A stretch of DNA of 15,782 nt, from the NCBI GenBank assembly GCA_020629995.1, contig JAHDCH010000025.1, forward strand, positions 1,430-17,211, in the 5' to 3' direction. Shown here piece after piece: positions 1-15,782 of the stretch. Position 1 is the stretch's first letter; each line of letters starts with the position of its first letter. Made by a program: the position numbers and the translations under genes. This DNA comes from Pseudaestuariivita sp. GTDB taxonomy: Bacteria > Pseudomonadota > Alphaproteobacteria > Rhodobacterales > Rhodobacteraceae. The notes under the pieces were generated by a model. The model made no database searches. It was not told the origin of the DNA and was given only the letters and a program-made list of their open reading frames with translations.

Positions 1-1068
1 TCGCCTGCCGAAACGCCTGCTGCGCAACCTGCTCCGCGCCCGCGCCGTGTTTCTGCCGGGGATCTGGTCAAACCGATCCGGCCCCGCCGCCCGACCAAGC
101 CGGTTGTTCTGCCCAGCAGCGCGCGTACAGATGTGACGCCGCCGCTGATCCTCACACCCGAGGACATGCCGCCCGCCGCCCCTGCCGGAGCCGATGAAAA
201 GCCGCTGGCAATGCCCGAGTTCAAGGACAAGAGCGTAACGCCCGCGCGGCCTGCGCCGGTGCCGGAAACGGTGACACAGCAGGATGGGGTACGGGCGCAG
301 CAAAGCGTTCCGCGCGCGCGGTCGTCGGCCAAGCGCAGCGATGCGGATGTCTGGCATCGTCTGGGTACCCAGCCGCTGAGCGCTGCGCATCTGGAGCGCA
401 ACCGCATCATTTCGGCCACCCGCCGCGATCCCGCGCACACGGCCTTTGACGTCCTGCGTACGCGGCTTTTGCAGGCTTTGGACGACAACGGATGGAAACG
501 CGTTGCCATCACATCGCCGACCAAGGATTGCGGCAAGACGTTCATCGCGGCCAACCTTGCCATGTCGCTGAGCCGGCAAGAGGCGTGCCGGACCCTGCTT
601 TTGGATATGGATCTGCGCGCGCCGTCGCTTGCGCGGGTGCTGGGTGCCTCGGACCCCGGCAGCATGGGAGATTTCCTGCGTGGCAGCCTGCCCGCAGAGG
701 AGCATTTCCTGAGGCTGGGCGACGATGGTTTAAGCATTGGGCGCAACATCGCGGTCGGCCTGAATGGCCTGCCCGAGGGCTATGCATCGGAGCTGTTGCA
801 ATTGCCCGAGACCAGCGATGTTCTGGACCGGATGCATCGGGATCTGAACCCGGACGTGGTGCTGTATGATCTGCCGCCCGCGCTGTTCCACGATGATGTG
901 ATGGCGTTCCGCCCGCATATCGATGGCGTGCTGCTGGTGATCGGTGGCGGGATCACAAAGGCCAGTGAAGTCAAGGAAGTTGAACGCCGTCTGGGCGATT
1001 CGACGCCTTTGTTGGGCGTGATCATGAACAAGGCCGAAGGGCCGACTGTCAGCACCTATAGCTACTGA
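1..1068 (+). CDS. CpsD/CapB-type P-loop ATPase (bacterial tyrosine kinase of polysaccharide export), 5' partial
   Basis: Cytoplasmic ATPase of the bacterial tyrosine kinase group that works with Wzz-type co-polymerases to control assembly and export of capsule or exopolysaccharide. The frame is open to the left edge with no ATG, GTG or TTG before the GTG at 133, so the true start is probably outside. The first ~110 visible residues are Pro/Ala/Arg-rich and look disordered. The kinase domain follows. It has a Walker A loop SPTKDCGKT (nt 514-540), a Walker A' segment LLLDMDLRAPS (nt 595-627) and a Walker B-like VVLYDLPP (nt 856-879). The first Gly of the usual P-loop is Ser. The C-terminus ends STYSY, a short tyrosine tail with only two Tyr, where enterobacterial Wzc has a longer cluster. 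No membrane segments are visible, so the kinase is separate from its Wzz partner, as in CpsC/CpsD. The likely partner is the convergent gene at 1111-2415, whose stop is 42 bases away. The family is clear; kinase activity itself is inferred. Confidence 0.88.
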   Translation, partial: SPAETPAAQPAPRPRRVSAGDLVKPIRPRRPTKPVVLPSSARTDVTPPLILTPEDMPPAAPAGADEKPLAMPEFKDKSVTPARPAPVPETVTQQDGVRAQQSVPRARSSAKRSDADVWHRLGTQPLSAAHLERNRIISATRRDPAHTAFDVLRTRLLQALDDNGWKRVAITSPTKDCGKTFIAANLAMSLSRQEACRTLLLDMDLRAPSLARVLGASDPGSMGDFLRGSLPAEEHFLRLGDDGLSIGRNIAVGLNGLPEGYASELLQLPETSDVLDRMHRDLNPDVVLYDLPPALFHDDVMAFRPHIDGVLLVIGGGITKASEVKEVERRLGDSTPLLGVIMNKAEGPTVSTYSY

Positions 1069-1110: not shown

Positions 1111-2415
1111 TTAGGGATCGGTGCGCATCGACCGGCCCACGACATTCGACAGGCTGTCCCGGAGGAAGGCGCCCAATGTCGCGGCGATCCCCAGCCCTAT
1201 TGCCAGCGCGCCCAGCATCCAGCTCCAGTTCATCTGCCGGTGCGATTGCGATTTGATGATCGGGATCGAGATGACCGGTTGCACGTCCAGCTGCTTTTCC
1301 AACTGCGCCGACGTCCGGATCACCGGATTCAGCGTTTCGATCAGAAAGGCCAGACCCAATCCGGCCAACAGCGACGCCACGCCGCCCATGATCGCGGTCT
1401 GTTTGCGCGACCGGGAGACAGGGTGTTCAGGCACAAGCGCGGTCTCGAGTACTTCGAACCGTTCGCTGCGCTGCTGGTCAGCCAGGGCCTGCGCCATTTC
1501 CGCGTCGGCCTTGCGGCGGGTGATCGCGCTGTATTGCTCAGCCAGCTGTGTCTGTTGCCGGGTCAGGGCGTTCAGCTCGCGTTCAACCGTGGGCGCGGCG
1601 GCAATGGCCGTTTCGATCTGGTTGATGCGGCCGCGGACCAGCTGACGCTGATCTTCCAGCAGGGTCACCTGACGGTTCAGCTCTGCTTCGCGCAGGCGGC
1701 TGCGGTTGGATTGCAGCTCGACCAGCTGGCGGTCGATGTCCAGTTCGGTTTCGCGCAGGGTCGCAAGGCGGTCGCGCTGTTGCACGATGCCTTCGGGCAG
1801 GCTTTCGGCATTGGCCTGCTTGAACGCCGCGACCTGAGCTTCCAGCGCGAGGATTTCATCATTGATCCGCGCGTCTTCGGCTTCAAAGAACGACAGCGCC
1901 TCGCGGGCCCGCACCTCGCCACGCGTTTTGCCGAATTCGACGACCTGGGCGAGGAATTCGTTGGCCACGTCGGCGGTCAGTTGCGCGTCGTCAAGCTTGA
2001 CCGTGATGATCAGGCCCGAAGGTGTCTGCGTGGGCTGAAACGCCTGCGCGGCGTTCAGGATCGGCGTCAGCGAGGCGGATGTGCGCAGGTTGAACACCTT
2101 GTCGCCAATCGACAGGTCAGGAATGTTTGCGAACAGATCGAATTTTTCGATGATGCGGATCAGGTTGTCGCGCGCCATCAGCCGCTGTTCTATCAGGCGC
2201 AGCTGGTGCGCCGCATCGGTGCGCTGGGTCGTGCTGGTCGGCTCCGCGATTTGCGGGCTTTCCAGCTGGATGACCGAAGTCGCCTCATAGATCTTGGGCT
2301 GGTTCAAAGCGAACCGGACCGAAGCTACACAACCGATACACACAACAAGTGCCACGATCCACCAGCGGCGGCGCAGCAACGACAGGACTTCGGCGACGGA
2401 ACCAACCTGGTTCAT
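1111..2415 (-). CDS. Wzz/GumC-type polysaccharide chain-length determinant (co-polymerase)
   Basis: Inner-membrane polysaccharide co-polymerase of 434 residues that sets chain length and couples to a CpsD-type kinase. The Wzz fold starts at residue 1. A basic stretch LLRRRWW leads into TM1 (about 18-37). A periplasmic region with the family-typical YEATSVIQL segment follows at 43-51. Long charged, Glu/Gln/Arg-rich stretches at about 165-325 are very probably coiled coils. A proline-bearing PEHPVSRSRK motif (329-338) precedes TM2 (about 340-361). A third hydrophobic stretch at 398-417 adds a probable extra membrane pass before a short tail. There is no P-loop, so the ATPase partner is separate, fitting the convergent kinase gene. 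The ATG at 2415 is supported by GGAGA (2421-2425) five bases upstream. The gene is 166 bases downstream of the NRPS on the same strand and may be read from its own promoter as well as by readthrough. The family call is firm; the polysaccharide is unknown. Confidence 0.92.
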   Translation of the reverse strand: MNQVGSVAEVLSLLRRRWWIVALVVCIGCVASVRFALNQPKIYEATSVIQLESPQIAEPTSTTQRTDAAHQLRLIEQRLMARDNLIRIIEKFDLFANIPDLSIGDKVFNLRTSASLTPILNAAQAFQPTQTPSGLIITVKLDDAQLTADVANEFLAQVVEFGKTRGEVRAREALSFFEAEDARINDEILALEAQVAAFKQANAESLPEGIVQQRDRLATLRETELDIDRQLVELQSNRSRLREAELNRQVTLLEDQRQLVRGRINQIETAIAAAPTVERELNALTRQQTQLAEQYSAITRRKADAEMAQALADQQRSERFEVLETALVPEHPVSRSRKQTAIMGGVASLLAGLGLAFLIETLNPVIRTSAQLEKQLDVQPVISIPIIKSQSHRQMNWSWMLGALAIGLGIAATLGAFLRDSLSNVVGRSMRTDP

Positions 2416-2581: not shown

Positions 2582-5500
2582 TTACCCCGCGCGGCGCGCG
2601 CGCATGGCCCGGCGACGTGCCATCATGTCACCCCGCGCAGCCGCCCGGGCATTTGCGGGCGGATGCGCGCCCTGTTCCGGGGCCGGTGCAGCATCCTGGC
2701 CGATTCGGCCCGCGAGGCCCGAGAGCGTCGGAAAGCGGAAGATATCGGTGATGCTGAGCGAGGGCAGATTCAGTTGCGCCTTGATCTGACGATGCGCCTG
2801 CACGGCCAGAAGTGAGTGCCCGCCAAGGTCAAAGAAGTTGTCGCGCGGGCCGATTCCTTCGACCCCCAGGATGCCTTCCCAGATTTCGGCAATCTGGCGT
2901 TCGATCCCGCTGGTCGGAGCCGCCTGAACCGCACGGGGCGCTTTGATCCGGGTTTCGGACCCGGGTGCGGGCAACGCTTTGCGGTCGACCTTTTTGTTGG
3001 GGGTCAGCGGAAAGCTGTCCAGCCGGACAAAGGCCGAGGGCAGCATGTACTCGGGCAGGGCGCTCAGCCCGGCTTTGACAGCCGCCTCGTCGGCCGATCC
3101 GGTGAAATAGCCGACCAGACGGGTGTCGCCCGGCGTGTCCTCGCGCGCGACCACGGTGGCTTGGGTCACGTCTGCAACTGCCTCCATCCGCGCTTCGATT
3201 TCACCCAGCTCTATGCGATAGCCGCGCAGTTTCAGCTGGAAGTCGGCGCGCCCGATGAACTCGACATGCCCATCCCCGCGCCAGCGCACCAGGTCACCGG
3301 TGCGGTACATGCGCCCGCCGTGGAACGGATCGGGCAAAAAGCGTTCGGCGGTCAGGTCTTCGCGCTGGAAATAGCCCCGGGTGACGCCATCGCCCGCAAT
3401 ATAAAGCTCGCCCGGCGTACCCACGGGCACGGGCTGCTGATCGTCGTCCAGCACATACATGCGTTGGTTTTTCAGTGGCGTGCCGATGTTGACGACCGCT
3501 TCGCCAGTATGGGCGGTTTCGGTCGAGGACCAGATCGTCGTCTCGGTCGGGCCATACATGTTTTCGATGGTGGCGTCCGTGGCGGCGTTCAGGTCATCGA
3601 CCAGTGCGCCGGGCAGCGCTTCGCCGCCGATCATCAGGTGTTTGACGCCTTTGAGGGCAAAGCGCGCCTCGTCATCCATCGCGATCATGCGGGCCATCGA
3701 CGGGGTGCATTGCAGGTGGGTGACCTCGTGGCGGATCAGCTGGGCGGCGATGGAAAAGTCATCCTCGGGGATGCGATTGCCGACATTGGCCATCTGCACC
3801 ACGTCCGCCAGCGGTTTGAGCCCCTCGAGGACCTGAGGCACCGGGATGCCATAATCGATCAGGCAGGCGACCTCGGTCACGCCGATGCGTTTGAGGCTTT
3901 CGACCCGGGCGGTGGCGTCTTCGATGGTGCCAAAGAGGCCGCTGTCTTCGAAATAGCGGGTGAAGGCGAAATCGAGGATGCCTTCCATATCCTCGTCCGA
4001 CACGCCGCCCAGATCGATGTCCATCGGGTTCTTGGCGTTCTCGGGCCGTTTGAAAGCGGGGAAAGCCCAGGCATAAGCCTTGATCAGCGCGGCGGCCGAG
4101 CGGAGGTAGTCTTTCATCGGCTCGCGGGCGATCTCGCGCGCCTCGTCGCGGGTGGCGGCGAGATAGGTGTGCAGCATCAGGGTAACCTGATGGTCCGCCG
4201 GGTCATGGCCGTTGTCGCGCAGCGCCTGGTGGTAGATCTTGATCTTGTCGGCCACCTCGTCAACTGATTGGCCCAGAAGGTGGGTCAGCACGTTGGCGCC
4301 GATCTCGCCTGCGTCTTTCCACGTCTGCGGGTTGCCTGCTGTCGTGACCCAGATCGGCAGCTCTTTGGACACGGGGCGCGGCTGGGTGACCACGGCGTGC
4401 GGCGTGCCGTCGCCCTTGGGGAATTCGACGGCCTCACCGGCCCAGAGCTTGCGCAGGGTATGGATGCTGTCGAGCATCGCAGGCTTGTTGGCGGGGGGCG
4501 TGTTTTCGGGGCGGAGGACAAAATCGTCAGGCTGCCATCCGCTTGCGATGGCAAGGCCCACACGGCCATTGGTCAGGTTGTCGATCACGGCCCATTCCTC
4601 GGCGATGCGCGCGGGATGGTGCAGCGGGGCGACGCAGGATCCGGCGCGGATGGCGAGGTTTTCTGTCACCGCAGCGACGGCTGCGCCGGTGACAGACGGG
4701 TTGGGGTAGGGGCCACCAAAGGCGTGAAAGTGACGCTCGGGCGTCCAGATGGCCTTGAACCCGTTCTTGTCAGCGAATTTCGCGCCTTCGAGCAGCAATT
4801 CGTATTTTTTGGGGCCGACGCCATCGTCATTGCCCCAGTAGAAGATCGAAAAATCCATCCCCTTGCCGGTCGTGCCCATGCGGCCCGACGAGATCATGGC
4901 GCGGTTGTCGTCGCCCGACAGCACCACCTTGAACCCGCGCGCGAGAGTATAGAACAGCTCGAGCACCGAGATGTCGAAGCTGAGCGAGGTGACCGCCAGC
5001 CACGTGCCCGCCGGGTCATGCACCAGCCTGTCGTCCATGCCGGCAAAGAAATTGGCGACGTTGCGGTGTTCGACCATCACGCCCTTGGGCTTGCCCGTCG
5101 AACCGGAGGTGTAGATCAGATAGGCCAGATGCTCGGGCGTCACGCCGCTGTTCGGCGCGGTGTCCGGCTGCGAGGCAAGGCGCGGATCAGTGTCGAGTTC
5201 GAGCACCTGCGCAGAATGTTCGGGCAAATCAGCGGCCAGATCGCTGGTGGTGACGATGACGGGCGCGCCGCTGTCTTCGATGTACAGGGCCACGCGGTCG
5301 GCGGGGTAGTCGGGATCAAGCGGGACATAGGCGCCGCCCGCCTTGAAGATCGCCAGGGCCGCGACCACCAGATGCGGGGTGCGGCGGGTGTGCAGACCGA
5401 CCAGAGTGTCCGGGCCAACGCCCATCTGGCGCAGGACATGCGCGGCGCGGTTGGCGCGCGCGTCCAGCTCGGCATAGGTCAGCTCGGTTGCGCCAGAGAC

Positions 5501-6967
5501 CAGCGCAGTGGCGTCGGGCGTTTGCGAAGCCTGCGCGGTGATCAGGTCGTGGATGCAGGCCGGAGTGACCTCTGCGGCGGTGGTGTTCCAGGTGGTCAGG
5601 ACTTCGGTACGCTCGGTCTTTGGCATCTTGCCACCGTTTGACAAACGTTCGGCCAGCCGTTCCGCATCGCGGTCCGACAGGCGGGCGCTGTCATAAGTGA
5701 CGTGATCGGCATGGATCGTCAGCGCAGTGCCGGGGATATGGGTTCCGGTGCCCAGGCCAATGGCGGGGGTGGTGACGTCAAGGCCGGGATGGCGCAGCGC
5801 GATGTCGGTTGCAAAGGAACTGTCGCCCGGTTCGGGCGTCCAGAACGAGACGTGGCCGGGCAGGCCCGGCGCGGCGTGAGCCAGGGTGTGGCCGGTGTCG
5901 GCCAGCCTTTGGGCCAGTGCTGCGGCATCGTCTTTGAGGGTGACCGGATGCCGGCCAATGGATCCACCAGACACGCCGGTATCTGCGGCCAGCGTCACAG
6001 GCTCGGCCGCAGCCAGCGCCTGCGCCCAATGCGCATCCTGCGGAGCGGCGGCGGCATAGGCGGCTGTCAGGGCCGCGCGGTGGTCGGGTGCAGGCAGGTC
6101 CAGCACCTGCCCGACCGTGAGGCCCGAGAACACGGCTGCTTGTCCGTCCTTGCGGACGGCCTCGCTGATGTCGAGAGCACCCTTGCCGCAGGCAATGCGC
6201 AGGGGATCAAGGGAGAGCACAGTGCCGGGCACGGCGCTGCCTTCGGTGGCAGCAGCCTTGCGCACGAAAACGGGGCCGCCGGGCAGGTCCAGCTTGGCTG
6301 TGGTCAGCGGGTTGCGGTAATCACCGTGATCCAGCGCGCGCACGGTACGGGCCAGCACGGCGGCATCGAGGCGCGGGTCCAGCAGACCGCCCGCCTCGGG
6401 CCGGTCATCGCGGCGATACAGGCTGCGTTGCGCGAAATCCTGTGGCGTGCCTTGGGTTTCGCCCGCCTCGATCGCGGCGATCACGCGGGGGAACGAGGCC
6501 AGTGCGGCCTCGTACGCCTTGGTGTTGAGTGTCAGCGCTGTGTCAGAGGCGGTGATGTCGAACATCTCTTGTGCGACGATATTGCCTGCATCCACGCCGG
6601 GCGTGATGTGGTGCCATGTGATGCCGTGCTGGCCTTCGCCATTCAGCAGCGCCCAGACCGGCGCGTTCAAACCGGCGTAGCGCGGCAGCGGCCCGTCGTG
6701 GAAATTGATCGCTCCGCTGCCCGCGCGGGCCAGCACGTCCTTGGGCAGCAGCCGCAGGTTTGCGACGGAAAAGATCCAGTCTGCCGTCTCAATCCGCTCG
6801 GCCAGACCAGCGCCCGGGCCTGTCACCGCGTGGCCCGCGCCGCGCGCCCAGTCTGCCACCTGCGTTGAAGCGGTGACAACCTGCGCGATGCTGTGGCCTG
6901 CCTCTGTCCACTGGGTGGCGCATTGGACCAGAAGGGATTCGTCGCCGATAAAGATCGCGGTGGTCAT
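2582..6967 (-). CDS. NRPS loading module: formyltransferase - split adenylation domain with inserted luciferase-like monooxygenase - carrier protein
   Basis: Cytoplasmic NRPS protein of 1461 residues. Residues 1-295 are a methionyl-tRNA formyltransferase-like domain with the catalytic trio N88, H90 and D126 and a C-terminal subdomain around 245-275. About 330-460 resembles only the end of a condensation domain; no HHxxxDG motif is present. The adenylation domain has A1 (496-507), A3 (617-636) and A4 FDIS (664-667). It is then interrupted at about 690-1065 by a MupA/Atu3671-type luciferase-like flavin monooxygenase (WTPERH at 741-746). It resumes with A5 YGPTETT (1138-1144), A7 (1221-1226), A8 (1239-1258) and A10, with K1326. 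Aligned pocket residues D-I-L-Q-M-G-M-I-W-K are close to the glycine code. The carrier serine is S1385. The last 21 residues are Arg-rich. The ATG at 6967 is chosen because it overlaps the previous stop (TGATG), is preceded by AAGGAAG and begins the formyltransferase fold. The longer frame upstream is a shadow of the glycosyltransferase gene. Confidence 0.93.
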   Translation of the reverse strand: MTTAIFIGDESLLVQCATQWTEAGHSIAQVVTASTQVADWARGAGHAVTGPGAGLAERIETADWIFSVANLRLLPKDVLARAGSGAINFHDGPLPRYAGLNAPVWALLNGEGQHGITWHHITPGVDAGNIVAQEMFDITASDTALTLNTKAYEAALASFPRVIAAIEAGETQGTPQDFAQRSLYRRDDRPEAGGLLDPRLDAAVLARTVRALDHGDYRNPLTTAKLDLPGGPVFVRKAAATEGSAVPGTVLSLDPLRIACGKGALDISEAVRKDGQAAVFSGLTVGQVLDLPAPDHRAALTAAYAAAAPQDAHWAQALAAAEPVTLAADTGVSGGSIGRHPVTLKDDAAALAQRLADTGHTLAHAAPGLPGHVSFWTPEPGDSSFATDIALRHPGLDVTTPAIGLGTGTHIPGTALTIHADHVTYDSARLSDRDAERLAERLSNGGKMPKTERTEVLTTWNTTAAEVTPACIHDLITAQASQTPDATALVSGATELTYAELDARANRAAHVLRQMGVGPDTLVGLHTRRTPHLVVAALAIFKAGGAYVPLDPDYPADRVALYIEDSGAPVIVTTSDLAADLPEHSAQVLELDTDPRLASQPDTAPNSGVTPEHLAYLIYTSGSTGKPKGVMVEHRNVANFFAGMDDRLVHDPAGTWLAVTSLSFDISVLELFYTLARGFKVVLSGDDNRAMISSGRMGTTGKGMDFSIFYWGNDDGVGPKKYELLLEGAKFADKNGFKAIWTPERHFHAFGGPYPNPSVTGAAVAAVTENLAIRAGSCVAPLHHPARIAEEWAVIDNLTNGRVGLAIASGWQPDDFVLRPENTPPANKPAMLDSIHTLRKLWAGEAVEFPKGDGTPHAVVTQPRPVSKELPIWVTTAGNPQTWKDAGEIGANVLTHLLGQSVDEVADKIKIYHQALRDNGHDPADHQVTLMLHTYLAATRDEAREIAREPMKDYLRSAAALIKAYAWAFPAFKRPENAKNPMDIDLGGVSDEDMEGILDFAFTRYFEDSGLFGTIEDATARVESLKRIGVTEVACLIDYGIPVPQVLEGLKPLADVVQMANVGNRIPEDDFSIAAQLIRHEVTHLQCTPSMARMIAMDDEARFALKGVKHLMIGGEALPGALVDDLNAATDATIENMYGPTETTIWSSTETAHTGEAVVNIGTPLKNQRMYVLDDDQQPVPVGTPGELYIAGDGVTRGYFQREDLTAERFLPDPFHGGRMYRTGDLVRWRGDGHVEFIGRADFQLKLRGYRIELGEIEARMEAVADVTQATVVAREDTPGDTRLVGYFTGSADEAAVKAGLSALPEYMLPSAFVRLDSFPLTPNKKVDRKALPAPGSETRIKAPRAVQAAPTSGIERQIAEIWEGILGVEGIGPRDNFFDLGGHSLLAVQAHRQIKAQLNLPSLSITDIFRFPTLSGLAGRIGQDAAPAPEQGAHPPANARAAARGDMMARRRAMRARRAG

Positions 6968-7953
6968 CAGGCATCTTCCTTTTGCAAGGAGCGGGAGGAG
7001 GGACTGCGCGCGGGCCACAGCGCGGCCAGATCGTGGGCGAGCATGTCGCGCAGGAAATGCGGCGGATCGGCAGGTGGCTTGCGCTGGATCACGCGCCGCA
7101 CCCGCCACAGCAGCCCGCCCGCCAGATGCGCAAGCGTCGCGCAGATGGCATAGGCCGTGCCGTGGTTCTTGGTGTAGTAGTGCCAGCGGCTCTGGAACCA
7201 GTAGCGCGGCGTGCGCGTCCACCGTTTCATCCCGGTCGAGACGCTGCCGATGTGGGTCACTTCGCTGCTGCGGACATAGACGGTCGGCCACCCGGCACGG
7301 GCGGCACGCAGGCACAGGTCGGTTTCTTCGAAGTAGAGAAAGAACGTCTCGTCAAACAGGCCAATCTGATCAAGCACGTCCTGCCGCATCATCAGCGACG
7401 CGCCGGCCAGCCAATCAACCTGTTGCGTCTTGGCGGGCAGGTCGAGAGGCACCCGTTTGGATTTCAGCAGGCGCGAGATCGGGCCGAAGCGTGCGGCGCC
7501 TTCCAGCTCGCCGGCGATCGAGGGGAAGCGGAAGGCGGTGATGTGCGGGTCGCCCTCGGGGCCGTGAATGTAGCTTCCGGCAAAGCCAACCTTCGGATCT
7601 TGCTCGAGCGTCTCGTAAAGGCGTTTGACCGAGCCGGGATCGGGAAAGGCGTCGGAGTTCAGGATGTAGACATAATCGGGCCGTGCGCCGCCGGTCAGGC
7701 CCGCGCGGATGCCGACGTTGTTGCCTGCGCCAAAGCCGCCGTTGCGGCCCGACTGCAGCACGCGCACGGGCCAGCCTCGGGCCTCGACCTCTGCGCGAAG
7801 ACGCTCTTCGGAGCCATCGCCGCTGTCGTTGTCGACGATCACGACTTCGCCGGGCAGGCCTTGGGTTTCGCGCAGGGCCGCGGCGACGGCCTTGACCGTC
7901 ATGTCGGCGGTGCGAAAATTCAGCACCACTGTCAAAAGGGTCGGCGCGGTCAT
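6967..7953 (-). CDS. Family 2 glycosyltransferase, WbbL/rhamnosyltransferase-like
   Basis: GT-A fold, family 2 glycosyltransferase of 328 residues that transfers a sugar from a nucleotide donor to a growing lipid-linked oligosaccharide on the cytoplasmic face. Visible features are the N-terminal nucleotide-binding strand LLTVVLNFRT (6-15), VIVDNDSGDGS (38-48), NGGFGAGNNVGI (71-82), the DxD-like NSD (99-101), the acceptor-side VDWLAGA (179-185) and the catalytic-region EETDLC (209-214). THIGSVST (233-240) is also typical of the WbbL rhamnosyltransferase group. A hydrophobic stretch at about 268-284, followed by basic residues, could hold it at the membrane. The ATG at 7953 overlaps the PKS stop by four bases (ATGA), and its own stop overlaps the NRPS ATG. 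It therefore sits between the two assembly-line genes and should be made in step with them. The family is firm; rhamnose as donor is only suggested by similarity. Confidence 0.9.
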   Translation of the reverse strand: MTAPTLLTVVLNFRTADMTVKAVAAALRETQGLPGEVVIVDNDSGDGSEERLRAEVEARGWPVRVLQSGRNGGFGAGNNVGIRAGLTGGARPDYVYILNSDAFPDPGSVKRLYETLEQDPKVGFAGSYIHGPEGDPHITAFRFPSIAGELEGAARFGPISRLLKSKRVPLDLPAKTQQVDWLAGASLMMRQDVLDQIGLFDETFFLYFEETDLCLRAARAGWPTVYVRSSEVTHIGSVSTGMKRWTRTPRYWFQSRWHYYTKNHGTAYAICATLAHLAGGLLWRVRRVIQRKPPADPPHFLRDMLAHDLAALWPARSPSSRSLQKEDA

Positions 7954-10900
7954 TCGGCGGCCTTTGGCGGCGTCATCGGCTCGGCGCTGAATTGCGCTTC
8001 GGCGCTGGTGATGCATTCCTTGATCCGGGCGGCCAGCACGCGGACGTTGGGTTCCAGCACCATGGAATCGTGGTCGCCCGGCACCTCGAACACTTCGATG
8101 TCGGGGATGAACTGCGTCCAGTCGTTGTCATCCAGCAAGTAGGACCGTTCGGACGACACCTTTTGCCCGCCCGACACCGTCCAGTGCCCCACCAGCGGAG
8201 GCCTGAACAGCGCGAGCCGGCCATCCCACGGTTGCACCTGATACTTGGTGACGGCTTCCATGAAGGCGGCTTCGATGGCGGCGTTGTGGAAGGCGTGATC
8301 GGGTGCGGCCTCGGGTGCGGGCGCTGTTCGTTTGGTGATTTCCCAGCGGATCCTCCGCAGCGGCCAACCCAGCAGATGCCCCAGGCCCTGCCGGCGGATG
8401 TCCTGCACGAAGATCATCGCGCGATCGACAGATTTGAGCGGTCGGCGCACGGGCAGCGGCGTGTCGAGCATGACCAGAAGCGAGACGGTCTCGCCCTCGG
8501 CCTCGAGCTGGCGCGCGATTTCCAGCGCGGTGATCCCGCCGCCGGAAAAGCCGCCCAGCATGTAGGGGCCGCTGGCCTGGACGGTGCGCATTTCGCGGAT
8601 GTAATCGGCGGCTGCGGCGCGCAGATCGGTATGTGGTGCCTCGCCGCCATAAAGGCCGCGGGCCTGAAGGCCATAGAACGGACGATCCGCGCCGATCAGA
8701 TGCGCAAGATGGCGCAGGTTGAGCACGTTGCCGAACATGCCGGCAACAAGGAAGAACGGCGCCTTGGGGCCGCCTTCGCCATCGTGCATCGGTACCAGAT
8801 GTGTATACCGCCGCGCGGGCGCCGCGGGCCGCTCATCGGGCCCGTCCGAGCCCGCCTCGCTGGTGGTGCCCGTGTCGCCTGTCTGTTCGGCGATCAGCGT
8901 GGCGCATTTGCGGATGGTGGGCGCTTCGAACAGGACCGAGATCGGGAATTCGATGCGGTAGGCCTTTTTGACCATGGCAAACAGGCGCACAGCGATCAGG
9001 GAATGGCCGCCGAGGTCAAAGAAGCTGTCTTCGACACCCACGTTGGACACGCCCAACAGGTCTTCCCAGAAGCCGACCAGCGTGCGTTCGATATCGGTCT
9101 CTGGTGGGGCATAATCGCTGTCGAGCTCGGGCCGGTCGAATTTCTGGCCGTCCGTTTCGGTGGAAAGGCCGGTGGCGGCGGTCTGTTCGGCCAGCGCGGC
9201 CAGATCAAGCGAGGACACGATGACCTGGCTGTGCCCGGTGGCCAGCGCGCGGCGGAAGGCTTCGGCGCCTTCGTGCGGCAGGATGCCCTGGCTGAGGTTG
9301 TGGTGCAGGCGCTCTTCGGCGGGCGACAGGGGCTGGTCGCCGGGGGCTGCGTCAAACTCCAGCTCGGCGGGCGTCAGGCGTGGTGCCTTGGCAAAGGCGG
9401 CCACGCTGTCGATCCGCTTGATGGTAAAGCCGGACAGGTCGAGGCAGACGTTGCCGTTTGCATCGGCCAGCGTCACGTCAAACTGGGCCACGTCGCCGGA
9501 TGCTCCGGCGTGGCGGACCCAGCTGGTGATCTCGGCAGGCAACGGGCGGAACACGCGGATCTGCGGATAGGACACAGGCACCCAGAGGTGATCGCCCTTG
9601 TAGCCGTCGATCAGCTGCATGGCCCAGCCTGTCGCGATGTCGAGCAAGGCGGGATGCAGCAAAAAGCCGTCGGTCAGATCGCCCGTGGCGTGATCGGGCA
9701 GGCGCAGCGAAGCAAGCCCCTCACCTGCGCCGAAGGCGGTGGATTTCAGAACGCGCCACCGGGGGCCGAACTGCAGATGTGCCTCTTGTGGCGAGGTCAG
9801 ATCGCCGCTGGCCTGATCGGGGCATCGCGCGGCGATGGCGGCGGCGTCGAGTTTGTCGGGCACCGCCATGGGCACCAGAGCAAGCGTCGCCTGCGCATGT
9901 GTCTGCCAGCCCGAGCGACCGTCCAGAAGTGCGGGGGTTTGCACTTCGAATCCATAGCCTGCATCGCGCCGCGACAGGCGCAGGCGCATGTTTTGCGGCG
10001 TTGCATCCGCAACGTGAAGCGGGCGCAGGAATGTCAGGTCGCGGATTTCGAACGGACCCGTTTCGCCATGCGCGGACAAGGCCTCGGCGGCCAGCTCGAT
10101 ATACCCAGTGCCGGACACCAGCGCGTCGCCCGTGCCTGTGCGGTGTTCATCCACCCACCAGTCGCGGGTGGCGTCGTAGGTGGCTTCGAACAGGCGGTTG
10201 CCTTGTGCGTCGAACGTGGCGTGGTCCAGCATCGGTGCCGTCACTTCGGTGCGCGGCGCGTCGGCTGTGCCAGTGCGCCGGGCGATGGCATCGGCGGCCA
10301 TGCCGACCTCGGCCCAGATGCCCCAGCCCAGGGCAGTCACGCGCGTCTGACCTTGCCGCGATTTGGCATAGGCATTCAGAAATTCGTTGGCCGCGACATA
10401 GTCCACCTGCCCGGCAGGCGCGGTCACGGTCGAGGTCGAGCTGAACAGGGCCATCCACTCGAGGTCGCCGTCAGGGAACGCCTCTTCCAGCACTTTCATG
10501 CCGTGGATCTTGGGGGTGAAGACGTCTTCGATCCCCGAAGGCGATTTGGTCAGCAGGGGGCCATCGTCAATCACGCCGGCCGCGTGGATCAGGCCGCTGA
10601 TCGGGCCAAAGCGGTCTTCGGCCATTGAGCGGGCGCGGCGGATGTCTTCGATGTTGGATACATCCGCGGCGCAAACCAGCACCTCTCCGCCCATCGCTTC
10701 GAGCCGTTCGACAGCGCGGATGTTGCGGGCTGTGCGATCCTGCGGACCGTGGCCGCGTTTGTGCGCGTCCCAGTCTGCGCGGTCCGGCAAGGCGGTGCGC
10801 GACAGCAGGACGATCCGGGCCTTGTGCCGCTGGATCAGGTCTTCGGCTATGGTCAGGCCGATGCCGCCAAAGCCACCTGTCAGCAGAACGGTCATGCCAT

Positions 10901-13900
10901 CCGCAAACGGAGGCGTGTCGGCGCCAAGGTCTGCCTTGCGGTGGGTCAGTTCAAACCGTTTGGCCCCGCGCAGCGCGGCTGTCTGACTGTGCGGTTCGGC
11001 CAGCAGCTCTTCGAGCAGGGCAAGGTCCAGCGCGGCAAGCGCCTGGTCATGCGCGGCGCGGTCCTTGCGCCGGCTTGGCGCCTTGGGCAGCACAATATCG
11101 AGCGATGAGGCCGTCACACCCTGCGCTTCGCGCGGGAACACACGCAGTGGGCCTTGGGCCGTGGCTTTTTCGGGATAAGGGAGCGCTTCGCCCCTCACCT
11201 GTGCTGCGCCAGTGGTGACGCAGGTGATGTGGATGGGTTTGGGCAGCGCTTCTTCTTCGATCGACTGGGCGAGGAACAGCAGCGAATAGAATCCCTGCTC
11301 GACGTTTCTGTGAAAGAAGGAGGATCCGGGCCGGAACGTTTCGGCGTCGGTGGTCAGCCAGAAATGCGCGATGCGCTCGGGCACCATGCCGCGCTGGACC
11401 AGATCCTGGATCAGCAGGTCATAGCTTTCGCGGCCCCGTTCGGGCGCGATCACATAGGTGGTTTCGCTGAGCCGCATGAACGCATCGCCAGCGGTCACCT
11501 CGACGATTGTGTGACCTGCGCTTTGCAATTGGTCCGACAGGCGGCGGGCAAGGCCGGTGTCATCCATGAACATCAGGCACGTGTGCGGATCGGTGCCCGC
11601 GAGGCCGGCCTCAAGGTCATAGGGGCAATCGGGCAGGGCCGGTTTCCATGCCGGGCGGGTGCCCCAATCGGTCACCTCACCCTCGCGCATCAGCAGATCG
11701 GGCAGGGCGGTTTGCGCGGTGCCGGGTTCGATGAAATAGGACTGGCGCTGGAACTGGTAGGTGGGCAGCGGCACGCGGTTGCGGCGTGCCTCGCCCCAGA
11801 TCTGGTCCCAGTCAAACACAGCACCCAGCGCCCACAGACGGCCAAGCGTGCCCATGTGGTAGACGTCGTCGGGCGTGTCGTCCTGCGGATGGCGCAGGGA
11901 CGACAGCACTTGCTGGCCCGGCACCTGTCCGTGCTGGCGCGTCAGGCTGCTGAGCGCTTTGCCCGGGCCGACCTCGAGGTAGATGCGGTTCGGTGTGGCG
12001 CTGAGCGTGGTGATACAATCGGCGAAATGTACGGTTCCGCGCAGGTGCTGGACCCAGTAATCGGGATCGGTTGCCTGATCGTCGGTGATAAAGGCGCCGG
12101 TGCGGTTCGACACGAACGGGATCTGCGGCGGGTTCAGCGGGATTGACCGGAGGAAAGCGCCAAAGTCCTCGAGAATGCCTTCCAGCATGCGGCTGTGCGC
12201 GGCGATGTCGATGGCGACGCGCTGACAGTCGATGTCTTGCGCCTTGAGCCGCGCTTCAAGCGCTTCGAGCAGGTGATCGGGGCCGGAGGCGACCGACAGT
12301 TCGGGCGCGTTGACAGACGCGAGGTCGAGATCGTCGCCAAGATGTTTTTGCAGATCGCCCGCGGGCAGGTTCACCGACAGCATGCCGCCTGCAGGGACCG
12401 TATCGAACAGTGTGCCGCGCAGGTGGACCAGGCTGATGCAGTCTTCGAACGACATCACGCCTGCCAGACATGCGGCGGTGTTCTCGCCCATCGAATGGCC
12501 GACCAGCGCCGAAGGCGTGACGCCCCAGCTGATCCACAGCTGCGCCAGCGCGTATTCGGTGATCATGATCAGCGGCAATTGCACGCTGGGCTTTTTCAGC
12601 CGCTCATCGGCCTCTTGCGTGTCCGCCTCGCTGGGGAGCCACAGCGCCCGGATGTCGTAGTCCAGCTTGGGGCCGAGGATGTCGAGCCCGCGGTCCATCC
12701 AGTCGGCAAAGACCGGTTCGGTCTCGTAAAGGCCACGCGCCATGCCCGCGTATTGCGCGCCGCCGCCTGGGAACATGAACACCAGTTCGGGGGTGTCCAG
12801 CGCGGTATGGGTAAAGACGCGCTTGGCGTCGTTCTTGTCCAGCAGATCGGCGGCCTCGGCGTGGCTTTCGGCCACCACCACGCGGCGCTTTTCAAAGGCG
12901 CGGCGGCCTTTGTGCAGGGTCCAGGCGATGTCGGCCAGCGGCTGATCGGTGCCGCGCAAGTGCTGGGCCAGCGCCGTGCCGTTGGCATCAAGCGCCGATT
13001 TGTTGCGGCCTGACAGGGTAATCAGCTGGAAGGGCCAGTCGCTGTCCTCGGACGCGGGACGCGCGGGGGCTTCTTCGAGCACGACATGCGCATTGGTGCC
13101 GCCAACGCCCAGCGAGTTCACACCGGCCCGACGCGGGCCGTTCCGGCTGGTCCATTCGGTCAGCGCGGCGTTCACCGCGAAAGGCGAGGTTTCGAAATCG
13201 ATGGACGGGTTCGGAGCCTCATACCCCAGCGATGGGGGCATCTCGCGGTGGTGCAGGCCCATGGACGCCTTGATCAGGCTGGCCACGCCTGCGGCCGTAT
13301 CCAGGTGGCCGATGTTCGTCTTGACCGAACCGATACGGCAGAATTGCACCTGATCCGTCGTTTCGCGAAAGGCCTCGGTGAGGGCGGCGACCTCGATCGG
13401 GTCGCCGAGATACGTGCCCGTGCCGTGGCATTCGACATAGTCGATTGTGTCGGCTGTGACGCCCGCGATGGCTTGTGCTTCGGCAATGGCGGCGGCCTGA
13501 CCGCCAACGGAAGGCGCCAGATAGCCGGCCTTGTCCGCGCCGTCGTTGTTGACGGCCGAGCCTTTGATGACGGCCCAGATGTGATCGCCATCCGCGATGG
13601 CGTCATCGAGGCGGCGGAGCACGACTGTGCCCGCGCCCGAGCCAAACACCGTGCCTTGGGCGCGGTGGTCAAAGGCGTGGCATTGCCCGTCGGGGCTCAG
13701 GATTTCGTTTTCCTTGTAGAGGTATCCGCGCCCTTGAGGGAATTCGATGGTCACCCCGCCCGCCAGAGCCATGTCGCATTCGCCGTTCAGTAGCGCCTGC
13801 GCGGCGTAATGCGCGGCGACCAGCGAGGTGGAACAGGCTGTCTGCACGTTGATCGACGGGCCGGTGATGTCGAGGAAATGGCTCACCCGGGTCGACAGGA

Positions 13901-14387
13901 AGTCTTTGTCGTTGCCGGTGTGGCGCAGCAGGAACATGCCCGTCGATTGCACCAGATCGGGGTTCGAACAGACATTGAAATAGAAATAGCTGCCCATGCC
14001 GCAGCCTGCGAACACGCCGATAGCGCCTTCGAAATGCTCGGGCATGTGGCCGGCGTTTTCCAGCGCTTCCCACGCCGTTTCAAGGAACTGGCGGTGCTGG
14101 GGGTCCATGATGGCGCTGTCCTTGGGCGACAGGCCAAAGAATTCGCCGTCGAACATCTCGAACCCGTCAAGATGCGCGCTATAGGGGACATAATTCTTGT
14201 GGCGGACCAGCGCGGCGGGTTCCCCCGCGGCCAGCAAAGCGTCTTCGTCAAGGCGGCGGATCGACGAACGGCCATTGCGCAGGTTGTCCCAATACGTGCC
14301 GATGTCCGCAGCACCGGGAAGGTGCGCAGCCATGCCGACGATTGCGATATCGCCCGATGTGTCGTGTGTACCGCTCATGTCACTCAT
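7950..14387 (-). CDS. Type I polyketide synthase module: KS-AT-KR-DH-ACP-TE
   Basis: Single-module cytoplasmic PKS of 2145 residues with built-in release. The ketosynthase (12-440) has C185, H321 and H361. The acyltransferase (535-820) has S632 in GHSMGE, R657 and an atypical AAHS (729-732) where malonyl enzymes show HAFH. The ketoreductase with its structural half (900-1365) has TGGFGGIG (1170-1177), K1293, S1317, Y1330 and N1334, plus an IDD (1273-1275) matching the LDD of B-type reductases. The dehydratase-like domain (1385-1665) keeps H1415 and D1583, but Ser replaces the Pro of HxxxGxxxxP and Gly (1587) replaces the Gln/His of DxxxQ/H. The ACP serine is S1796. The thioesterase (1875-2125) has S1948, D1975 and H2106. 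KR precedes DH, the reverse of the usual order. The ATG at 14387 (MSDMSG) is preferred over GTG at 14414 because GGGA sits a good distance upstream. It is translationally coupled to the glycosyltransferase and probably accepts the NRPS carrier's acyl group. Confidence 0.93.
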   Translation of the reverse strand: MSDMSGTHDTSGDIAIVGMAAHLPGAADIGTYWDNLRNGRSSIRRLDEDALLAAGEPAALVRHKNYVPYSAHLDGFEMFDGEFFGLSPKDSAIMDPQHRQFLETAWEALENAGHMPEHFEGAIGVFAGCGMGSYFYFNVCSNPDLVQSTGMFLLRHTGNDKDFLSTRVSHFLDITGPSINVQTACSTSLVAAHYAAQALLNGECDMALAGGVTIEFPQGRGYLYKENEILSPDGQCHAFDHRAQGTVFGSGAGTVVLRRLDDAIADGDHIWAVIKGSAVNNDGADKAGYLAPSVGGQAAAIAEAQAIAGVTADTIDYVECHGTGTYLGDPIEVAALTEAFRETTDQVQFCRIGSVKTNIGHLDTAAGVASLIKASMGLHHREMPPSLGYEAPNPSIDFETSPFAVNAALTEWTSRNGPRRAGVNSLGVGGTNAHVVLEEAPARPASEDSDWPFQLITLSGRNKSALDANGTALAQHLRGTDQPLADIAWTLHKGRRAFEKRRVVVAESHAEAADLLDKNDAKRVFTHTALDTPELVFMFPGGGAQYAGMARGLYETEPVFADWMDRGLDILGPKLDYDIRALWLPSEADTQEADERLKKPSVQLPLIMITEYALAQLWISWGVTPSALVGHSMGENTAACLAGVMSFEDCISLVHLRGTLFDTVPAGGMLSVNLPAGDLQKHLGDDLDLASVNAPELSVASGPDHLLEALEARLKAQDIDCQRVAIDIAAHSRMLEGILEDFGAFLRSIPLNPPQIPFVSNRTGAFITDDQATDPDYWVQHLRGTVHFADCITTLSATPNRIYLEVGPGKALSSLTRQHGQVPGQQVLSSLRHPQDDTPDDVYHMGTLGRLWALGAVFDWDQIWGEARRNRVPLPTYQFQRQSYFIEPGTAQTALPDLLMREGEVTDWGTRPAWKPALPDCPYDLEAGLAGTDPHTCLMFMDDTGLARRLSDQLQSAGHTIVEVTAGDAFMRLSETTYVIAPERGRESYDLLIQDLVQRGMVPERIAHFWLTTDAETFRPGSSFFHRNVEQGFYSLLFLAQSIEEEALPKPIHITCVTTGAAQVRGEALPYPEKATAQGPLRVFPREAQGVTASSLDIVLPKAPSRRKDRAAHDQALAALDLALLEELLAEPHSQTAALRGAKRFELTHRKADLGADTPPFADGMTVLLTGGFGGIGLTIAEDLIQRHKARIVLLSRTALPDRADWDAHKRGHGPQDRTARNIRAVERLEAMGGEVLVCAADVSNIEDIRRARSMAEDRFGPISGLIHAAGVIDDGPLLTKSPSGIEDVFTPKIHGMKVLEEAFPDGDLEWMALFSSTSTVTAPAGQVDYVAANEFLNAYAKSRQGQTRVTALGWGIWAEVGMAADAIARRTGTADAPRTEVTAPMLDHATFDAQGNRLFEATYDATRDWWVDEHRTGTGDALVSGTGYIELAAEALSAHGETGPFEIRDLTFLRPLHVADATPQNMRLRLSRRDAGYGFEVQTPALLDGRSGWQTHAQATLALVPMAVPDKLDAAAIAARCPDQASGDLTSPQEAHLQFGPRWRVLKSTAFGAGEGLASLRLPDHATGDLTDGFLLHPALLDIATGWAMQLIDGYKGDHLWVPVSYPQIRVFRPLPAEITSWVRHAGASGDVAQFDVTLADANGNVCLDLSGFTIKRIDSVAAFAKAPRLTPAELEFDAAPGDQPLSPAEERLHHNLSQGILPHEGAEAFRRALATGHSQVIVSSLDLAALAEQTAATGLSTETDGQKFDRPELDSDYAPPETDIERTLVGFWEDLLGVSNVGVEDSFFDLGGHSLIAVRLFAMVKKAYRIEFPISVLFEAPTIRKCATLIAEQTGDTGTTSEAGSDGPDERPAAPARRYTHLVPMHDGEGGPKAPFFLVAGMFGNVLNLRHLAHLIGADRPFYGLQARGLYGGEAPHTDLRAAAADYIREMRTVQASGPYMLGGFSGGGITALEIARQLEAEGETVSLLVMLDTPLPVRRPLKSVDRAMIFVQDIRRQGLGHLLGWPLRRIRWEITKRTAPAPEAAPDHAFHNAAIEAAFMEAVTKYQVQPWDGRLALFRPPLVGHWTVSGGQKVSSERSYLLDDNDWTQFIPDIEVFEVPGDHDSMVLEPNVRVLAARIKECITSAEAQFSAEPMTPPKAAE

Positions 14388-14423
14388 CAAAGGTTCCCGA
14401 AGGCGCAATGCCACAGTTTCCTA

Positions 14424-14460
14424 CCGGGGAAATGCGGAAATATTGCGGCAAATTCCCCGG
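14424..14460. repeat. Inverted repeat upstream of the PKS gene (possible operator or attenuator)
   Basis: Perfect 8-base arms CCGGGGAA (14424-14431) and TTCCCCGG (14453-14460) flank a 21-base centre. The centre itself carries TGCGG twice (14433-14437 and 14444-14448), 11 bases apart, about one helical turn. The element ends 37 bases upstream of the chosen PKS start, in an AT-richer gap. It could bind a dimeric regulator or form a hairpin in the PKS leader. No T-run follows on the - strand, so a simple terminator is unlikely. Confidence 0.4.
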
Positions 14461-14506
14461 ATGCCTGCGCATTTTCCCAAGAAATGTGGGGTTTTGCGCG
14501 TGCCAC

Positions 14507-14536
14507 AATCTCGCCTTTTCATCAAAGGGATTGCAA
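14507..14536 (-). promoter_or_regulatory. Weak candidate promoter for the PKS-glycosyltransferase-NRPS unit
   Basis: On the - strand TTGCAA (14531-14536) lies 18 bases from GAGATT (14507-14512), matching seven of twelve consensus bases. The -10 region reads AGATTGTGG, the same nine bases that overlap the candidate -10 of the Wzz gene (2481-2489). The whole gap 14388-14576 holds no convincing gene. I see here only this element, the dyad nearer the PKS start and two TGCCACA copies. The promoter call is tentative. Readthrough from the flippase gene is also possible because the strand is the same. Confidence 0.2.
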
Positions 14537-14576
14537 GTGGGGCATTGTTTCGCGGGCGGAAACCCGGCTGATTGCG

Positions 14577-15782
14577 TCAGCCCAGACCGGCCAATTCCGA
14601 CAGTGGCAGGCGGTTGATCCACAGCGCTCCGGCGCCGAGGGCCGCGCCGATCACGGCAAAGGTGGCGTCGTGCAGCGGGTCCCATGCGCCCATATGCCGG
14701 GCCAGCCAGACGACCACGGGGTAGACGACAATCATCGCAATGCCCTGCCCGATCAGCGCGCCGAACAGCCCCGCCATGCCAAAGCCGATGACCAGACCTG
14801 CAATCATCAGCACCGCCCGTGCCAACGCGAGGGCAAAGAAGCGGCGGCTGTCGCCCGCGGCCAGCGCAGCCTGATCGTAGGTCAGCGCGATGATCTGCGG
14901 GATCTGCATCACTGCGATCAGGCTGACGATGGGCCCGGCGAGGTGATAGCGCGGGTCATACAGCAGTTCGACCAGCCAGACGCCGAGGCAGGCAAAGATG
15001 ATCTGCATCCCCAAAAGAGCGGTCGTCACGGCCACGCGCATCTTGCGCAGCTTGGCGAAATTCGCGGCGCTTTCGGTTGGCGGCGTCTCTCGGTAGATGG
15101 GGATCAGGATCTTGCGCGTGATCATTCCGCCCAAAAGCAGGGGGAAGGAGGCGAGGAAAAATCCGATGTTGTAGACGCCGAACGTGTCCAGATCGAGAGC
15201 CTTGCCCAGAACGATCCGGTCGCCCTGAGCAAAGAAAAAGCCGCAGACCGTCGACAGGAACACCCATTTGCCAAAGTTGATCAGCTCTTGCGCGGCGGGC
15301 TTTTCCCAGCGGAATGAGTTGTTTGGGCCCGGCAGATAGGCGCGGAACAGGATCAACTGCGCGGTGGCGGCCAGGATATAGCTGACCACCAGCGCCCAGA
15401 CCGATCCCCACCACAGCGCCAGCCCCACCGCCGTGGCGATGCCAACAAGCTGCACGGCGATTTCGATCGCGGTGACGCGGCCCAGCACAAGGTGGCGGTT
15501 GGCGGTGTCTTTCTTGGTGGGATCGCAGCCGTTGATGATCAGGATCAGCGAGGCGACGGGCAGGTAATAAAGCAAATCCGGTTCGGCATAGAACCACGCG
15601 GCCGGCCAGGCGATGCCGCAGGCCACAACCCACAGGCACACGCCGCGGATCACCTGAATGGTCCATGCGGTGTTCAGGAAATCGCGGTCGTCGCCGCGTT
15701 TGGATTGCATGATCGCGGGCGTCACGCCCACGTCCGAAAACATGGCAAGCCCCATCAGGATCACCATGATCAGGGCCATCAT
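14577..15782 (-). CDS. Wzx-type polysaccharide flippase (MOP superfamily), N-terminus cut by window edge
   Basis: Integral membrane transporter that flips lipid-linked oligosaccharide repeat units across the inner membrane in Wzx/Wzy-type pathways. The visible 401 residues are almost all hydrophobic helices joined by short basic loops, and I estimate about ten to eleven membrane segments. Near the N-terminus, FSDVGVTPAIMQSKRGDD and the following NTAWTIQVIRG are characteristic of the polysaccharide_synt family. The Met codons at the window edge are probably not the real start. In this family about 40-60 residues, including the first helix, precede that segment, so the gene should continue to the right. 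It is on the same strand as the PKS, 189 bases upstream, and may share the transcript. Its presence with Wzz, kinase and glycosyltransferase marks the region as a polysaccharide assembly locus. A lipid II or teichoic-type flippase is a less likely alternative. Confidence 0.88.
   Translation of the reverse strand: MMALIMVILMGLAMFSDVGVTPAIMQSKRGDDRDFLNTAWTIQVIRGVCLWVVACGIAWPAAWFYAEPDLLYYLPVASLILIINGCDPTKKDTANRHLVLGRVTAIEIAVQLVGIATAVGLALWWGSVWALVVSYILAATAQLILFRAYLPGPNNSFRWEKPAAQELINFGKWVFLSTVCGFFFAQGDRIVLGKALDLDTFGVYNIGFFLASFPLLLGGMITRKILIPIYRETPPTESAANFAKLRKMRVAVTTALLGMQIIFACLGVWLVELLYDPRYHLAGPIVSLIAVMQIPQIIALTYDQAALAAGDSRRFFALALARAVLMIAGLVIGFGMAGLFGALIGQGIAMIVVYPVVVWLARHMGAWDPLHDATFAVIGAALGAGALWINRLPLSELAGLG

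Follow-up and report, generated by a model that had tools for sequence, protein, structure and literature searches.

Wzx/Wzy-dependent loci use acetyl-, pyruvyl- or sulfotransferases to decorate their polymer, the dlt operon moves an unmodified amino acid by a membrane transferase, and lipids are the presumed products of the capsule polyketide synthases (PKSs) RkpA (Sinorhizobium) and WcbR (Burkholderia). Here we describe a locus of Pseudaestuariivita sp. in which a nonribosomal peptide synthetase (NRPS) and a PKS are embedded among genes for polysaccharide export. Many bacteria of sea and soil have such a line within a sugar-coat gene cluster, although antibiotics are the usual products of enzymes of this kind. 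The window, i.e. the whole stretch of DNA that was analysed (15,782 nucleotides; assembly GCA_020629995.1, contig JAHDCH010000025.1, positions 1,430 to 17,211), covers most of its contig, which is 17.2 kb long and belongs to a genome that is 70% complete. We consider it probable that this dedicated NRPS-PKS line builds a formylglycine-plus-malonate acyl group that decorates a Wzx/Wzy-type exported polysaccharide.

With the Wzx/Wzy-dependent loci the window shares Wzx, Wzz, a BY-kinase and a glycosyltransferase (GT), and relatives of the locus add Wzy, WecG and initiating transferases; however, the decorating part would be an assembly line and not a single transferase. The dlt operon and RkpA/WcbR resemble it in applying carrier-protein or PKS chemistry to a surface polymer, whereas in the present case a formylated amino acid would be extended with malonate.

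The linear gramicidin initiation module, LgrA, has formyltransferase (F), adenylation (A) and peptidyl carrier protein (PCP) domains in one protein, as does the NRPS in the window, whose best match in the PDB it was (6mfz, E 1.5e-222). Conglobatin is proposed in PMC4504003 to begin with formylglycine extended by malonate. Compared with LgrA, conglobatin and oxazolomycin, the present line differs in the flavin monooxygenase in its A domain, its single PKS module and its polysaccharide locus. No cyclodehydratase partner (CongE/OzmP of conglobatin/oxazolomycin) was found among the six window genes, the sole place searched. Oxazole formation and a metallophore role were set aside because partner genes were absent from the annotated neighbours, to which that search was confined.

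The oxygenases of myxothiazol and melithiazol biosynthesis, according to PMC10204066, lie between the A-domain motifs a4 and a5 and hydroxylate the alpha carbon of glycine, and the carbinolamide then cleaves to a glyoxyl thioester. The likeness to these proteins, MtaG/MelG, was drawn from published descriptions rather than from sequences, and consists of the placement of a flavin oxygenase within a glycine A domain, in the stretch from a4 to a5, and of a glycine code that matches DILQLGMIWK closely or exactly; PMC12283262 gives this sequence as common to four glycine domains with an inserted monooxygenase. The oxygenase of MtaG/MelG releases a finished chain as an amide, whereas the one described here stands at the start, behind a formyl group, and would hand on to a PKS. 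Our NRPS opens with an F domain and ends after the PCP; because it carries no chain-ending thioesterase (TE) of its own, we did not class it as a member of the MtaG/MelG group.

Association with polysaccharide genes

On the minus strand, the genes run in transcription order from the flippase Wzx (14577..15782, truncated by the contig end; PF13440, E 6.5e-38) through the PKS (7950..14387, 2145 aa, ATG start codon seen), a GT2 glycosyltransferase (6967..7953; PF00535) and the NRPS (2582..6967, 1461 aa) to the chain-length determinant Wzz (1111..2415; PF02706, E 2.4e-6, above the cut-off). A BY-kinase resembling polysaccharide tyrosine autokinases lies on the plus strand (1..1068, its 5' part outside the window) with a TIGR03018 match of 76 bits, below the cut-off of that model. 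Wzx, Wzz and BY-kinase are genes expected of a Wzx/Wzy-dependent polysaccharide locus. An earlier reading of the letters alone (hereafter the sequence-only reading) had named a flippase, GT2, Wzz, kinase, NRPS and PKS, and all are present. It was right about a tyrosine kinase, although this gene does not share the strand of the assembly line, and about a two-protein NRPS-PKS, in which it overlooked the inserted flavin monooxygenase. Its observation that the GT overlaps both assembly-line genes agrees with the junctions: GT and PKS have 4 bp (ATGA) in common, GT and NRPS 1 bp (TGATG).

The same reading had asked whether PKS, GT and NRPS always travel with wzx/wzz across the Rhodobacteraceae, and they largely do. 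We sampled 198 genomes of the family from 197 genera (one per genus, one genus excepted) and used fixed E-value cut-offs for all co-occurrence counts, NRPS presence being set at E<=1e-200. The NRPS occurred in 68 of the 198, about one third. Comparing these 68 genomes with the other 130, Wzx was found in 63 versus 8, Wzy in 65 versus 10, Wzz in 62 versus 4, the GT in 66 versus 11 and the PKS in 68 versus 12; the Wzy family was named from a weak Wzy_C match, and another cluster had a stronger one. The photosynthetic reaction centre (PF00124), taken as a control, showed no association (30 of 68 versus 54 of 130, p 0.76). Wzx lay at most 18.3 kb from the NRPS in 49 of the 63 genomes, on another contig in 12, and on the same contig but 1.49 and 1.87 Mb away in two. 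Breaks in the assembly may account for some of the 12 cases, but not for the two long distances. We inspected in part each of the eight genomes with Wzx that were scored NRPS-negative, and three (G085, G097 and G155) held NRPS relatives below the cut-off. The same three were among the 12 PKS-only genomes, the other nine being partial matches. When the three genomes with below-cut-off relatives were added after the fact, an NRPS was present in 64 of the 65 genomes whose Wzx reached 45% identity, the exception (G147) being a 73%-complete assembly. A sample across the Alphaproteobacteria gave 7 positives in 385 genomes, five of them from the family of the window and including its own genome, and the system therefore appears rare elsewhere in the class at that cut-off.

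For the gene neighbourhoods, a scan of genome contigs gave at least 353 confirmed NRPS relatives, of which the best 80 were kept together with the window contig, so that the resulting 81 loci are tilted to close relatives. In 60 of the 81, PKS, GT and NRPS followed one another directly on the same strand as they do in the window, with Wzx directly upstream in 17. With genes and start codons both chosen by a codon-model caller, a 4- or 1-bp overlap occurred among these 60 at the GT-NRPS junction in 35 loci and at the PKS-GT junction in 26; the interleaving of the GT is thus conserved and not due to chance. Gene clusters, each named from one tested member or from the window genes, were present in the 81 loci as follows: PKS 71, phosphopantetheinyl transferase (PPTase) 66, GT 65, Wzz 42, Wzx 39, Wzy-like 38, WecG 37, BY-kinase 35 and initiating sugar transferase 15.

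Had homologous pairs been found mostly away from polysaccharide genes, the proposal of the sequence-only reading would have lost its ground, and the opposite was observed. Sixty-seven of the loci measured 20 kb or more; 64 of these contained at least one kind of Wzx/Wzy-pathway gene and 59 at least two kinds, as against one and none, respectively, of 20 blindly picked 20-kb regions from NRPS-positive genomes; the pathway profiles were built from the target loci themselves, and the targets measured 20-26.6 kb. With the 14 shorter loci included, at least two kinds were present in 64 of the 81. Judged by their record titles, 14 loci lie outside the Rhodobacterales; 12 of these carried one or more pathway kinds, and the PKS was often divergent from the NRPS. 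On annotated plasmids of Paracoccus, Ruegeria and Aminobacter, glycosyltransferases, a sugar transferase or export genes adjoin the line. Every annotated cluster found in at least six of the 81 loci belonged to the assembly line, the PPTase, the polysaccharide genes or sugar metabolism. Families for efflux, uptake or resistance were not seen among them, the clusters c21 and c23 having had no family search. Overall, the NRPS-PKS pair is strongly linked to one type of Wzx/Wzy polysaccharide system.

Domain organization and predicted acyl unit

All domains described below are encoded on the minus strand. Within the NRPS, the F domain core (6479..6787; PF00551, E 5.2e-19) is followed by an A domain (3152..5536) that PF00501 and TIGR01733 each matched in two stretches, and by a PCP (2702..2896; PF00550). 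The A domain is split by a luciferase-like (LLM) flavin monooxygenase of the MupA/Atu3671 type (3800..4852; TIGR04020, 474 bits), the nearest solved chain of which is PuwE (6ket, E 9e-99). It occupies residues 707-1057, between the motifs that we take to be a4 (at 665) and a5 (1137-1143), which is the insertion point described for MtaG/MelG. Residues that we presume to be catalytic were well kept: the Asn/His/Asp of the F domain in 79 of 80 NRPS homologues with one gap, in keeping with an LgrA-type initiation module, and the PCP Ser in 78 with two gaps. The A code, taken at the PheA positions, was DILQMGMIWK by motif positions in the window, and across the 80 homologues it was D-I-L-Q, then M (38), L (25), F (14) or Y (3), then G-M, then I (77) or V (3), then W-K (K 78, gap 2). 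We regard this code as glycine-like, and together with the conserved F-domain residues it supports the formylglycine starter that had been proposed. The nearest named NRPS homologue, from Pseudaestuariivita atlantica, was 86% identical.

The PKS is of type I and comprises ketosynthase (KS, 13221..14351; PF00109/PF02801), acyltransferase (AT, 11925..12782; PF00698), ketoreductase (KR, 10308..10892; PF08659), dehydratase (DH, after the KR, 9399..10235; PF21089/PF14765), acyl carrier protein (ACP, 8895..9083; PF00550) and TE domains. The TE (8025..8735) was matched by PF00975 over its first part, and its 3' limit was set by eye to take in a conserved His. The KS Cys/His/His, AT Ser, KR Tyr/Asn, DH His/Asp, ACP Ser and TE Ser/Asp, again as we presume them to be catalytic, were kept in 66 of 66 PKS homologues and the TE His in 65 with one gap. 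The AT motif, GHSMGE, is presumably malonyl-type.

We infer the following order of reactions, transfer to a sugar and structure. The A domain would load glycine onto the PCP, on which the F domain would formylate it. Hydroxylation of the formylglycyl thioester at its alpha carbon is the probable task of the inserted monooxygenase, as in the glycine modules of myxothiazol and melithiazol. The formyl group would make the starter nitrogen amide-like, as is the nitrogen presented to a hydroxylase of this kind in myxothiazol. The KS would couple the formylglycyl unit to one malonyl unit, and KR and DH would yield a 4-formamido-3-hydroxybutanoyl or 4-formamidobutenoyl thioester, perhaps with one extra oxygen. 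The TE would then hand the acyl group to a sugar of the repeat unit, a matching Wzx would flip the decorated lipid-linked unit, and Wzy with Wzz would polymerise it. The monooxygenase may oxidise the unit or even strip the nitrogen of the formylglycine: on an alternative branch, hydroxylated formylglycine would collapse into formamide and a glyoxylyl thioester. The domains thus predict a C4 acid that bears a 4-formamido group or, should the carbinolamide collapse, a C4 acid without nitrogen. By calculation, the formamido group would add to each sugar 129.043 Da in the hydroxy form or 111.032 Da in the enoyl form, and 145.038 or 127.027 Da, respectively, with the extra oxygen.

Sister loci, variants and distant relatives

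We examined eight regions from eight genomes that had a relative of Wzx, Wzy or the GT and, as far as seen, no NRPS. Four contained sulfotransferases and two contained hexapeptide-type proteins, recognized by a Pfam match in L124 and by cluster membership alone in L126. BLASTP with seven sulfotransferase queries gave no match among the open reading frames of the 81 NRPS loci.

The line itself varies. The form in G085 (L164, G085:C42:14000-33999) has lost the oxygenase and the DH and has a seemingly degenerate KR. It keeps F, A (with the code DILQLGLIWK by eye), PCP, KS, AT, ACP and TE; a different acyl unit is therefore predicted for it. In G097 (L165, G097:C17:144000-163999), the gene order is kept, but by eye the KS Cys, the AT Ser and the PCP and F motifs are lost, the oxygenase is gone, and one in-frame stop interrupts the PKS, with long frames otherwise open. 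Wzx, GT, Wzz and BY-kinase persist beside this decayed line, and therefore the polymer seems able to do without it. This pattern fits a dispensable decoration better than an anchor.

A plasmid of Deinococcus actinosclerus (CP029777; L142) bears a separate formyltransferase, an NRPS of A, monooxygenase and PCP domains and a KS-AT-KR-DH-ACP PKS, a likeness drawn at the level of domains. The surrounding locus is capsule-like, with genes that are annotated as CapK, polysaccharide biosynthesis, UDP-glucose 6-dehydrogenase and sugar transferase. In place of a TE, the PKS has a terminal condensation domain. Condensation domains couple an acyl group to an amine or hydroxyl, and this ending is compatible with transfer to an acceptor. 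A GNAT/FemAB-like protein and a PGA_cap protein are also encoded at this locus. By contrast, an LLM-NRPS of Streptomyces, in the one region examined, is part of an ordinary metabolite cluster, and the presence of the oxygenase module is therefore not diagnostic by itself.

More tentatively, a cross-phylum NRPS-PKS family of Rhodobacterales, Hyphomicrobiales and Deinococcus might supply formylglycine-derived, flavin-oxidised C4 acyl groups for exported polysaccharides. Its Wzx would be matched to the decorated unit, sister loci would use sulfotransferases, and variants without oxygenase and dehydratase would give other decorations.

Discussion

The interpretation offered by the sequence-only reading, an acyl unit built beside a GT and used on an exopolysaccharide, is partly supported as a whole, and several observations weigh against it. 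The evidence is genomic. The Fisher values for co-occurrence, 1e-36 and smaller, take no account of the tree. Five of the 68 NRPS genomes had no Wzx match, and two of these five, G144 (with a PKS match of just 43%) and G158 (a 300-contig assembly), had no match to Wzx, Wzy, Wzz or the GT. The putative Wzy of the window genome, a 47% relative, lies outside the window on the small separate contig C144. No Wzx/Wzy-pathway kind was found in three of the 67 loci (L013, L033 and L082). A cluster mate of the hexapeptide-type proteins is also present in the NRPS locus L033, and in G126 a sulfotransferase lies on the same contig as the NRPS, outside the stretch L082.

It could be argued that the product is a small molecule, either free or glycosylated (a signal, metallophore or antibiotic), which has its locus, and possibly its flippase, in common with the polysaccharide genes. 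Release of a free product is the usual outcome for NRPS-PKS lines with a TE, the genes of roseobacters and Paracoccus are treated in print as secondary metabolism, the Streptomyces LLM-NRPS belongs to a metabolite cluster, and the fabrubactin oxygenase FbnE is reported to make chelating alpha-hydroxycarboxylates. Nevertheless, we consider such a product unlikely, given that relatives of Wzx, Wzy, Wzz and the GT co-occur with the line even when unlinked and that the annotated recurrent clusters contain none of the efflux, uptake or resistance families mentioned above. A fortuitous joint ride of both gene sets on the same islands or plasmids, with no shared function, seems very improbable. Some carriers are indeed plasmid-borne (29 plasmid records matched, not all of this family), but the pairing survives unlinking (Wzx was unlinked in 14 of 63 genomes), the Hyphomicrobiales and Deinococcus differ in gene order with polysaccharide genes still near, and the overlaps with the GT are conserved.

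The line might instead provide a primer, anchor or cap that the polymer needs, in the manner of RkpA and WcbR. PKS genes in capsule loci are known from such cases, and one operon here unites PKS, GT and flippase. However, the single extension module predicts a C4 unit and not a lipid, sister loci keep relatives of Wzx, Wzy and the GT yet have no NRPS match, and the export genes of G097 outlast its line; to us an indispensable role is improbable.

The titles and abstracts of the open-licence literature that we searched gave no description of this pair as a glycan-decoration system. In PMC4062626, the PKS Inhi_1972 and the NRPS Inhi_1974 of Phaeobacter inhibens are listed as secondary metabolism; going by numbering rather than by sequence, they are probably the pair described here. 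A hybrid cluster of Paracoccus marcusii pCP157_02 is likewise listed as secondary metabolism in PMC8273931, and probably corresponds to the region that we read on this plasmid. We also considered PMC12016528, which concerns another cluster. Within the open-licence literature, no paper was found for Atu3671, nor for RkpA with polyketide and K-antigen.

If the decoration proposed here is real, assembly-line biosynthesis would be a source of glycan decorations, with a group that is predicted and measurable, and the system would span about a third of the sampled genomes (68 of 198) of an abundant marine family. The hybrid NRPS-PKS genes that PMC4062626 and PMC8273931 count as metabolite clusters without products would be explained, and genome miners should then interpret such genes as coat genes; the roseobacter hybrid clusters now filed under secondary metabolism would be coat-decoration genes. 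Surface chemistry in biofilms and in association with algae would also become accessible to genetics. The locus offers a compact formylglycine-oxygenase-PKS system for study.

Other genes of the neighbourhood

The PPTase-named cluster lay directly downstream of the NRPS in 64 of the 81 loci. No PPTase was found in the window, including positions 2416-2581 beside the NRPS, or in the incomplete window genome. A partial match occurred in a sister genome on another contig (G072:C23:178088-178480).

On pCP157_02 (L139), annotation gives the formyltransferase a gene of its own, which overlaps that of the NRPS; upstream, next to a WecB/TagA/CpsF glycosyltransferase, there is another NRPS gene.

An exported family of about 314 aa (c6; e.g. 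L038:15230-16174) with a GHSLVG motif, SGNH-like by eye, was present in 40 of the 81 loci. One member tested had no Pfam or NCBIfam match, and a profile of the family gave just weak, unrelated PDB matches. A search of the window genome and its sister did not find c6, which is therefore not part of the core. A longer neighbour, c13 (L038:16171-18693), has a c6-like start followed by an unnamed part of about 550 aa.

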